NCBI RefSeq assembly: GCF_018141445.1
Contig: NZ_CP058649.1
Location: 3,119,001-3,183,000 of the forward strand
Direction of reading: 5' to 3'
Length of the DNA: 64,000 bases
DNA from: Vallitalea pronyensis
Lineage (GTDB): Bacteria; Bacillota; Clostridia; Lachnospirales; Vallitaleaceae
Position numbers and translations under genes: made by a program. The notes under the pieces are model-generated. The model ran no database searches and was not told where the DNA came from. It saw only the letters and a list, made by a program, of their open reading frames with translations. This document shows positions 27,425 to 30,697 of the stretch, piece after piece; the first letter of the stretch is position 1, and the number at the start of each line of letters is the position of its first letter.

Positions 27425-28492
27425 ATGCAAAGAGAGAAAGTCATAATAAAACCATATTTAACCACCATTTCCTTAGACCCAGAAAATCAAGGTACTCCTA
27501 TTCATTTTTCAGATGATTGGATTACGCCAGAACCTCTTTTTTTCCTTAGGAACCATTATCCTTATCCACCTATAACACCGGAATCCTTTAAACTTACAGT
27601 AAGTGGGGAGGTAGAAGAACCCGGATATTTTAATTATGAACAATTGTTGCAGATGCCCTCTAAAACAATTGTGTTGCCGTTAGAGTGTTCTGGCAATAAA
27701 AGAAAAGAATTTCAACCGCCTACATTTGGTACGCAATGGGATGATGGGGCCATAAGCCAAGGGGTTTGGACAGGAGTACCTCTTCGGGACTTACTTCAAT
27801 TTTCTGGCTTAAAGACATCCGCTTGTGACATTGTTTTTGAAGGGCATGATTCTGGTAAAATTGTAGGTTTAGAAGGCGACCATCCCTTTGCTAGAAGTAT
27901 ACCAATTGACGTGGCACTGCATCCAGATACCCTTATTGCTTATGCACTAAATGACAAACCCATTACGTACAAACATGGATATCCCTTACGGTTAATTGTA
28001 CCTAAGTGGTATGCCATGGCATCGGTGAAATGGCTAAAAAAAATAACAATTCTTGATGAGCCATTTGATGGTCCTTATCAAGCATTGGATTATCACTATT
28101 TTCCATATGAAGATAGTGATGAAGATAAAGTCCCTGTAACAACAATGAAGGTGAATACGATTATTCAGCAGCCCTTACCTCAATCCAGTTTAGATCCTGG
28201 TATACACCTTATCTATGGCATTGCCTGGACTGGAGAAGGTATCATTGACAAAGTTGACATTAGTTTTGATAAGGGAGCAAGCTGGCTAAAAACTAAATTA
28301 AGGCAAGACCAGAGTGAGACCTATTCATGGACCGTTTGGTCTTATATATGGGATGTGAATAAGAAAGGAAAGTATACCGTTATGGTGCGGGCAACAGACA
28401 CCACAGGTAGAGAGCAACCTGCTCACGTGACTTGGAATAGACTTGGTTATGGGTATAATGGGATATCCACCATAAATCTACAAATTGTTTAA
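27425..28492 (+). CDS. sulfite-oxidase-family molybdopterin enzyme
   Basis: A 355-aa protein. The molybdopterin domain (about residues 20-225) contains FFLRNHYPYPPITPESFKLT and VLPLECSGNKRKEF, whose Cys near residue 88 would ligate Mo. SIPIDVALHPDTLIAYALND and LRLIVPKWYAMASVKWLKKI are also conserved. The C-terminal Ig-like dimerisation domain has YGIAWTGEGIIDKVDISFD and ends near residue 350. No signal peptide or haem domain is present, so the electron acceptor is unknown. It follows an alkyl sulfatase gene, suggesting a shared sulfur-ester theme, though sulfatase releases sulfate, not sulfite. Confidence 0.88.
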   Translation: MQREKVIIKPYLTTISLDPENQGTPIHFSDDWITPEPLFFLRNHYPYPPITPESFKLTVSGEVEEPGYFNYEQLLQMPSKTIVLPLECSGNKRKEFQPPTFGTQWDDGAISQGVWTGVPLRDLLQFSGLKTSACDIVFEGHDSGKIVGLEGDHPFARSIPIDVALHPDTLIAYALNDKPITYKHGYPLRLIVPKWYAMASVKWLKKITILDEPFDGPYQALDYHYFPYEDSDEDKVPVTTMKVNTIIQQPLPQSSLDPGIHLIYGIAWTGEGIIDKVDISFDKGASWLKTKLRQDQSETYSWTVWSYIWDVNKKGKYTVMVRATDTTGREQPAHVTWNRLGYGYNGISTINLQIV

Positions 28493-28561
28493 GTGTTAAA
28501 AATCAAGATATTACGCAGGTCATTAAATGCTGATGAGGATGTATGGTTATAAAGATGGGAC

Positions 28562-28590
28562 TTGTTTTTTCCAGGCCGTTCATGTATAAT
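28562..28590 (+). promoter_or_regulatory. promoter of the bpsA-speD leader
   Basis: TTGTTT (28562-28567), a 17-base spacer and TATAAT (28585-28590). Transcription would begin near 28597, about 30 bases before a terminator-like hairpin. Confidence 0.6.
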
Positions 28591-28601
28591 AAATATGAAA
28601 T

Positions 28602-28648
28602 TGCATGAAAAAGGAATGTTTATACCGTGTTCATGCACGGTTTTTTTA
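28602..28648 (+). promoter_or_regulatory. candidate transcription attenuator upstream of bpsA-speD
   Basis: ACCGTG (28624-28629), loop TTCATG and CACGGT (28636-28641) run into seven T: an intrinsic terminator form. TGCATGAA (28602-28609) can pair perfectly with TTCATGCA (28630-28637), which uses the loop and the first bases of the terminator's right arm. The two folds exclude each other. The hairpin lies after a good promoter and before the polyamine genes, so conditional termination is plausible. It could instead be the terminator of the upstream sulfite-oxidase-like gene. Confidence 0.5.
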
Positions 28649-28769
28649 TGTAAAACTATGCGTATAAAGATCATACAGATTTGTGAACTAAAAATTATAG
28701 GAAAGTATATGTTAAGCTATAGGTGTATTCTACTTACCTATGGCTTTAATTTTATGAAGGAGGAATAAT

Positions 28770-28847
28770 ATGTTAATTGTAGCGAAAGAATATAGTGATG
28801 TAAGCATTGTTGTCATGAGAAATCAAGGAGAGCCTGTATTATTATAA
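28770..28847 (+). CDS. putative 25-aa leader peptide before bpsA
   Basis: ATG with GAAGGAGG 6 bases upstream, the best ribosome site in this stretch. It is followed by 25 codons ending EPVLL and then three in-frame stops (TAA TGA TAA). The bpsA start codon lies 12 bases after the first stop and has a poorly placed ribosome site of its own. bpsA may therefore depend on translation of this ORF. There is no signal or membrane segment. It could be a regulatory leader or the product of gene decay. Confidence 0.5.
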   Translation: MLIVAKEYSDVSIVVMRNQGEPVLL

Positions 28848-28859
28848 TGATAACGGAGA

Positions 28860-29918
28860 GTGATAAAAATTATTAATTATATAGAAGAAATCGAGAAGCA
28901 AGTATCCATAGATGAAGGTATTATGGCCATTGAGCAATTTCTTATACAAGTATATTTTGAGAACCCCATATCCAATAAAGAATTAGCTAGAAAACTATAT
29001 CTGCCTATACCACTTGTAACAGCTATTAAAAAAGAATTTATTAAGGTTGGCGTCGTCAAACAAGAACGGGGCATAACCATGACATCAAAGGGTTATGACT
29101 ATGTGGAAGACTATCTAGGGTATAGAGGGTTAGACAAGGTATTATATAATAAGCTGCTTAATCAGGCATATGACTTAGAAGATGTATTTTCAGAAGAACT
29201 ACAGATCATGGAAGATATATTTGACAATAGGCCCACTGCGGACATGCGTGTTGACCAAGCCCATTGTACCTATATAACAAGCTTAAAAAGAAGCTTGTTG
29301 GCATTACAGTATAACACCCTTATTCATAAGAAGATACTATGTGTAGGTGACGATGACCTTGTCAGTATCTCCTTAGGTCTTTTATTAAGAAAACTCTATG
29401 GTGGCACCAATCAAAGTAAATCTGAAATTCATGTCATTGACGTGGATGACCGTTACCTTGATTATATAAAAGAGATAGCTAATCAATATGGATTACCCAT
29501 TATTTGTCATAAAATGAATCTTAGACAAGCCATGGACAAGAAGCTCATAGGTAACTTTGACAGTTTTTATACGGACCCACCATACACCATAAATGGTCTG
29601 AGCTTGTTTTTATCAAGAGGAATAGCCGGTCTGAAAAAAAGGAAAGGACTTCCTATATTTTTCTCTTTTGCTCATAAGTCATACGATTATTCTTTTGATA
29701 TGATGGGTAAGTTCTACGAAATGGGGCTTAGTTTATATCGTATTATGCCAAAGTTTAATGAGTATGAAGGAGCAAGTATTATAGGGAACATAGGGCAGAT
29801 TATGATACTGAATACGACTTCTTATACTACGCCAGTTATTAAAGAAGATGCGTATTATGAGGACAACTTGTATACGAGAGAAGTAAAAAGGGGCTCAAGA
29901 GAGAAGGTGAATTCTTGA
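28860..29918 (+). CDS. bpsA: BpsA-like aminopropyltransferase (DUF43 family)
   Basis: A 352-aa member of the branched-chain polyamine synthase family. These enzymes transfer aminopropyl groups from decarboxylated AdoMet to spermidine or related acceptors. An N-terminal winged helix is at about residues 1-90. The catalytic Rossmann domain contains KILCVGDDDLVSISLGLLLR, then EIHVIDVDDRYLDYI and FDSFYTDPPYTINGLSLFL, the DxxYT-type signature of the family. The GTG start is the only suitable codon, but GGAG sits only one base before it. The gene overlaps speD by 4 bases, so the two proteins form one pathway. The acceptor polyamine is not known. Confidence 0.87.
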   Translation: MIKIINYIEEIEKQVSIDEGIMAIEQFLIQVYFENPISNKELARKLYLPIPLVTAIKKEFIKVGVVKQERGITMTSKGYDYVEDYLGYRGLDKVLYNKLLNQAYDLEDVFSEELQIMEDIFDNRPTADMRVDQAHCTYITSLKRSLLALQYNTLIHKKILCVGDDDLVSISLGLLLRKLYGGTNQSKSEIHVIDVDDRYLDYIKEIANQYGLPIICHKMNLRQAMDKKLIGNFDSFYTDPPYTINGLSLFLSRGIAGLKKRKGLPIFFSFAHKSYDYSFDMMGKFYEMGLSLYRIMPKFNEYEGASIIGNIGQIMILNTTSYTTPVIKEDAYYEDNLYTREVKRGSREKVNS

Positions 29919-30697
29919 GCAAGAAAATAAAATTACATGGATTTAATAATTTGACCAAAACCCTGGGTATTAATTTCTATGATATCTATTATGTTGAGGA
30001 AAGATGTCAAGAAGCCTATACCCATTATGTCAATGAAAAGTACAGTGCCGATAAGTTAACGGACATATTAAAAACAGTTGCAAAGAAGATTGAAGCAAAT
30101 GTGATAAACATTGCGAAACAAGATTACGAACCCCAAGGAGCAAGCGTTAATCTGCTTATAGCAGAGGGGGATAGCAGCGATCTATCCATCGATGAATCTT
30201 GTAATGGCGGTGTTATACAACCGCACTATCTGTTGGGGCACTTGGATAAAAGCCATATCACGGTCCATACTTATCCGGAAAGTCATCCTCATGGGCATCT
30301 ATATTCTGTTAGGACAGATATAGAGGTAAGTACTTGTGGTGAGATATCTGCCATTCATGCACTCAATTATTTAATGGGCATATTTCGTTCCCAAGTCATT
30401 TCGGTTGATTATCGAATAAGGGGCTTTACAAGGGATACACATGGACACAAGTGCTATCTGGATCACAAGATTAATAGCATCCAAGATTTTGTGGAAGAAT
30501 CGTATAAACAGCACTATCACATGAAGGATTCTAATTTAATCAACGAGCATTTATTTTATACCAAGATGATGTTGCATAAGTTGGATGTTGAGAAATGTCT
30601 GTTTCTTAAAGATAAAGAAATACGGGAAGAAGAAAAAGAGAGGCACGTATTGGATAGCATCCGTCAGGAAATGCAAGATATTATAGAGGCAAGATAA
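29915..30697 (+). CDS. speD: S-adenosylmethionine decarboxylase proenzyme (E. coli-type)
   Basis: A 260-aa pyruvoyl enzyme that makes the aminopropyl donor for polyamine synthesis. KLHGFNNLTKTLGINFYDIY opens the protein. The self-cleavage site is in DKSHITVHTYPESHPHG, with the Ser that becomes pyruvoyl near residue 113. FRADIEVSTCG-like DIEVSTCGEISAIHALNYL and YRIRGFTRDTHGHKCYLDH follow. The length is that of the larger E. coli class, not the short Bacillus class. TTG start with AAGGTGA upstream, overlapping the bpsA stop. Confidence 0.95.
   Translation: MSKKIKLHGFNNLTKTLGINFYDIYYVEERCQEAYTHYVNEKYSADKLTDILKTVAKKIEANVINIAKQDYEPQGASVNLLIAEGDSSDLSIDESCNGGVIQPHYLLGHLDKSHITVHTYPESHPHGHLYSVRTDIEVSTCGEISAIHALNYLMGIFRSQVISVDYRIRGFTRDTHGHKCYLDHKINSIQDFVEESYKQHYHMKDSNLINEHLFYTKMMLHKLDVEKCLFLKDKEIREEEKERHVLDSIRQEMQDIIEAR

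Follow-up and report, generated by a model that had tools for sequence, protein, structure and literature searches.

A predicted promoter-proximal terminator hairpin with a competing upstream pairing in the leader of the Vallitalea pronyensis bpsA-speD operon

The polyamine-related speF and mdtUJI leaders of enterobacteria respond to ornithine or spermidine by way of upstream ORFs (uORFs) and premature termination, and they use a translated uORF together with Rho (PMC6386406, PMC7815308). That an antiterminator segment lies upstream, and so is able to form first, is a stated rule (PMC9226507). The one review of branched polyamines that was searched, which deals with thermophiles, contains no word beginning ‘clostridi’ (PMC12979288). 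If real, the control proposed here would be the first to be described in the leader of a branched-chain polyamine synthase operon from this bacterial group.

The window, by which is meant the whole stretch of 64,000 nucleotides of Vallitalea pronyensis DNA that was analysed, has bpsA at 28860-29918 (BpsA_C domain, PF01861, 130.6 bits) and, in the same direction, a sulfite-oxidase-type molybdopterin gene at 27425-28492 (PF00174 and PF03404). Among the solved relatives of the bpsA product are N4-bis(aminopropyl)spermidine synthases (E 1e-22). An E. coli-type AdoMet decarboxylase gene (29915-30697, TIGR03331) overlaps the end of bpsA, and the pair is thus taken as a polyamine operon, bpsA-speD. 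The 367 bases that separate the sulfite-oxidase-type gene from bpsA contain, in order, a promoter-like site, a short segment termed B, a hairpin followed by U7, a second hairpin of 12 bp and an ORF of 25 codons, all of them on the + strand.

A preliminary description of this DNA had proposed a promoter with 17-base spacing ahead of the first hairpin, and both its sequence and its coordinates proved right. The predicted sigma-A promoter (28562-28590) consists of the −35 hexamer TTGTTT (28562-28567), a 17-nt spacer and the −10 hexamer TATAAT (28585-28590). While the −10 is perfect, the −35 is weak, matching TTGACA at 3 of 6 positions, and for this reason the promoter is missing from a strict consensus scan. 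When 28493-28860 was scanned with a weight matrix of our own, using approximate weights for sigma-A promoters, it scored 9.7, the best value in the intergene, the runner-up scoring 6.1; sites reaching that score occur at 42-75 per 128 kb. Transcription is expected to start near 28597.

Within 60 bases of this promoter, as had been claimed, a terminator scan finds a terminator-type hairpin at 28624-28641 (ACCGTGT-TCAT-GCACGGT, about −10 kcal/mol) which, with a stem of 7 bp including 4 G-C pairs, a loop of four bases (UCAU) and a T7 run directly after it (28642-28648), has the makeup of an intrinsic terminator. A stricter scan of both strands gives 11 terminators in the window, and it is one of them. 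Reverse complementarity is exact between segment B, TGCATGAA (28602-28609), and segment C, TTCATGCA (28630-28637), the latter comprising the end of the left arm, the loop and part of the right arm; the proposed pairing of an 8-base segment with the hairpin loop and right arm is therefore confirmed to the base. The 8 bp of B:C and the terminator stem are mutually exclusive and have nearly equal predicted energies, B being the antiterminator-like competitor.

The chance of an 8-base complement to the loop and right arm, estimated from random stretches of the window for this one selected hairpin and a single type of pairing, is P = 0.0013 in 27 nt and 0.0024 in 45 nt, and the longest such complement at the other 10 terminators of the window is 6 bases. 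Among the many hundreds of terminators expected genome-wide (~11 per 64 kb), chance would produce one or two such cases. In the genome (6.3 Mb) there is a single occurrence of the pattern TGCATGAA-N10-30-TTCATGCA-NNN-TTTT and none of its reversed control. Taken over its full length, the leader has an unremarkable folding energy (z = −1.85). An attenuator-like anatomy, with a predicted promoter of its own, an early intrinsic terminator and an exclusive upstream pairing that goes beyond chance, is in this way supported as a feature of the sequence.

From these sequences, their complementarity and the predicted energies we infer promoter use, termination, read-through and any regulation that they may bring. 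The best explanation, held tentatively and at somewhat below an even chance, is that the 5′ leader of bpsA-speD carries in this hairpin a promoter-proximal intrinsic terminator that blocks upstream read-through, and that some or most of the RNA begun at the operon's promoter passes by means of B:C. RNA begun at the expected start would face a choice. In one course B pairs with C, the terminator is blocked and the polymerase continues through the uORF into bpsA; in the other the terminator forms and transcription stops after about 50 nt. As B:C would be able to form first, and would be slightly more stable in RNA with its 5′ end at 28597, read-through would be the fate of some or most transcripts begun there. 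RNA entering from the sulfite-oxidase-type gene would mostly be terminated. In support of the explanation as a whole, the terminator scans show no other terminator after that gene. The hairpin would then serve as an insulator and as a fixed or mildly tunable attenuator, and the element looks like an ordinary attenuator or insulator.

Equilibrium fold predictions for RNA from 28597 give B:C a probability of about 0.8 and the terminator 0.14-0.19, and B:C reaches 0.97 when bases only as far as 28638 have emerged from the polymerase. By default, then, RNA begun by the operon itself is predicted to read through rather than to terminate. For RNA from 28400-28570 the terminator probability is 0.51-0.96. 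The energies, −10.0 for the terminator versus about −11.3 kcal/mol for B:C, are about 1.3 apart, which is within model error, and the preference is reversed if the start lies some 7-10 nt to either side. With shuffled upstream sequence the median terminator probability is 0.65, and 39% of shuffles reach the real value of 0.81; with random genomic upstream sequence the median is 0.41 and 28% reach it. Because such sequences also raise the terminator, the contrast between own and incoming RNA needs no designed element. One candidate for such an element, segment A, TTCATGTA (28579-28586), overlaps the −10 and can pair with B (7 Watson-Crick pairs and one GU), and it is present only in RNA from upstream; as a specific anti-antiterminator it was rejected, its effect being no better than that of shuffled upstream sequence. 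For comparison, 73 terminator-like hairpins from the window and the homologue loci were folded, each with 27 nt of its own upstream sequence. Their median terminator probability is 0.99, and 12% have values of 0.2 or less, these being mostly weak hairpins; among hairpins of similar stability 2 of 18 are so low, the one at 28624-28641 being one of the two. The B:C-favoured behavior of this hairpin, as modelled, is accordingly unusual, not singular.

The main rival, which is fairly unlikely, is that the hairpin is the plain terminator of the sulfite-oxidase-type gene, with the promoter spurious or unused, the bpsA promoter unrecognised further down and the 8-base complement coincidental. It draws strength from the position of the hairpin, 131 nt beyond the stop codon of that gene with no terminator in between, from the three matches out of six in the −35, and from the control set, in which other terminators too have competing upstream folds. 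The matrix scan speaks against it, as there is no promoter of similar score in 28648-28860 and the maximum between the hairpin and 28830 is 4.2; with no comparable promoter there, a bpsA start downstream of the hairpin, the scenario that the preliminary description had set against its own proposal, is not favoured. The chance of 0.001-0.002 for the complement also counts against coincidence. To see if the hairpin belongs to the sulfite-oxidase-type gene, orthologues of that gene were sought in 21 other genomes of the family, and there were none.

bpsA itself is absent from 5 other genomes of the genus and from 16 genomes of the family. The two adjoining genes are thus both missing from 21 other family genomes, on which ground the region may have been acquired. 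Matches to bpsA occur in 8 of 392 genomes of the order, 13 of 391 of the class and 43 of 398 of the phylum, many of them only distant, and the nearest named homologue is from a Bacillota MAG. No close or alignable leader was found among the homologues in the relatives, the order, the class, the phylum or the families and order of the best hits. A DNA search with the leader in the genome and genus found itself and, beyond that, chance matches of ~20 bp (those at L014, L019 and L020 are inside reading frames).

The sole near BpsA homologue (71-73%), at a locus present in two collections as L002 and L023, has a different leader. A strong terminator adjoins its preceding gene, a promoter TTGCAT-17-TATAAT is inside a long inverted repeat, and before bpsA there is no terminator of the 28624-28648 type. 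In L002:2740-2860 that promoter is located between the repeat arms ATTATACCCTTT and AAAGGGTATAAT, and a second pairing, of TGCATTATA with TATAATGCA, lies over the −10; the inverted repeat is a candidate operator or RNA switch. The leader of L004, whose homologue is at 51%, has within L004:1312-1458 a uORF of 17 codons with a strong SD (1323-1376), and the uORF codons pair with the stretch before bpsA (−40.7 kcal/mol, z −4.76, 0 of 200 shuffles). An alternative partner for the right-arm UAAGCCU could be AGGCUUA in the SD region of bpsA, an arrangement like that of translation attenuation. As these two leaders differ from that of the window, there may be several forms of bpsA leader control, but the element at 28562-28648 turned up at no other locus.

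Between the terminator and the uORF of the window is the second leader hairpin (28714-28746; 12 bp, −15.1 kcal/mol, z −3.43), which ends just before the SD of the uORF and is followed by an A/T-rich stretch with TTTT; it is perhaps a second weak terminator. The candidate uORF, MLIVAKEYSDVSIVVMRNQGEPVLL (28770-28847), has 25 codons, a strong SD, AAGGAGG, and no known homologue, and 12 nt separate its end from the bpsA GTG. In the window, ATGs with a strong SD for the most part begin longer reading frames.

The start codon of bpsA is itself of interest. In the window the mechanically assigned GTG at 28860 abuts the SD, and an ATT at 28869 is 6 nt from it. More generally, the bpsA frames of the window (28860-28872), L002 (3001-3012, AUA), L004 (1432-1449) and L005 (reverse complement, 1495-1506) have no ATG near the start and have AUU or AUA 4-7 nt after a good SD. 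L004 has no in-frame ATG, GTG or TTG near its bpsA SD (AGGAGG, −10.2 kcal/mol); in the window, L002 and L005 a GTG abuts the SD and might conceivably be the start there. To judge from these sequences, AUU or AUA is the probable start codon of bpsA in the four genomes. Of 40 long reading frames of the window, 31 have both a canonical start and, at 3-11 nt from it, an SD, so that the missing canonical start of bpsA is uncommon, not unique, and the bpsA homologues at L025, L026, L036, L037, L038 and L039 have a canonical start. In E. coli infC a rare start codon carries control through IF3. A rare start codon, GTC, can carry such control in sigR as well (PMC5472188).

Considerably less likely than a plain gene-end terminator is a true signal-responsive attenuator, in which a protein, a ribosome or a polyamine would tip the choice of fold towards B:C or towards the terminator to suit polyamine supply. 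The operon is one for polyamines and includes AdoMet decarboxylase, the alternative folds are nearly balanced, and the speF and mdtUJI leaders are precedents, though of another design (PMC6386406, PMC7815308). Set against this, only about 27 nt separate the predicted start from the hairpin, which leaves no aptamer-sized sequence before it. Neither of the ATGs in the early leader (28605, 28616) has an SD at a suitable distance, and the uORF that is preceded by one (28770) is 3′ of the terminator. Rfam has no match at gathering score, and hits at E up to 10 are at chance level. Nor did the relatives searched yield a leader like this one, those of L002 and L004 being different. The small, unclassified polyamine- or translation-responsive switch that the preliminary description had put forward is on all these counts left unsupported.

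Two further ideas about the three related segments are both very doubtful. The first has the terminator gated by the 5′ end of the RNA: segment A would be an anti-antiterminator carried only by upstream read-through RNA, so that foreign RNA is stopped, while the operon's own RNA folds the antiterminator and passes. A terminator able to tell incoming transcripts from the operon's own by where they begin would, if true, be a simple insulator design, and it is mentioned purely as a possibility. The second takes TTCATGYA, of which three copies alternate in orientation at 28579, 28602 and 28630, as a DNA half-site for a repressor around the start, with RNA complementarity a by-product. Of 15 copies of the motif in the window, 3 are indeed within 59 bp around the −10 and the start, but the centre spacings, 23 versus 28 bp, are unequal and correspond to no whole number of helical turns, a proper terminator contains the third copy, the choice of motif was post hoc, and no such cluster was seen in L002 or L004. 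Least probable of all is a small RNA gene of ~50 nt with a terminated product that acts in trans, since, while promoter and terminator are about 50 nt apart and a sub-threshold hit to an Rfam sRNA family spans the unit (E 4.5, chance level), no conservation of the unit was seen, and it is below every Rfam threshold, is very short and is placed in an operon leader.

The best explanation, a promoter-proximal terminator that the operon's own RNA may bypass, can be set beside three known arrangements. With the speF and mdtUJI leaders it shares the position before polyamine genes, premature termination, here predicted, and a uORF, here after the hairpin; the difference is that those leaders employ a translated uORF and Rho, whereas here a candidate intrinsic terminator precedes the uORF. 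With the Bacillus subtilis vmlR leader it shares an antiterminator and a terminator that overlap and are mutually exclusive, the antiterminator being upstream. In contrast to vmlR-type attenuation, the element described here has no anti-antiterminator in the operon's own RNA, no known ligand and no leader ORF before the hairpin, and it is only 50 nt long and is not conserved in any relative examined. Like an ordinary intergenic terminator, it is a hairpin with a U-run between two genes of the same direction; it differs from one in that the best promoter is before, not after, the hairpin, and in that an exact 8-base competitor is present.
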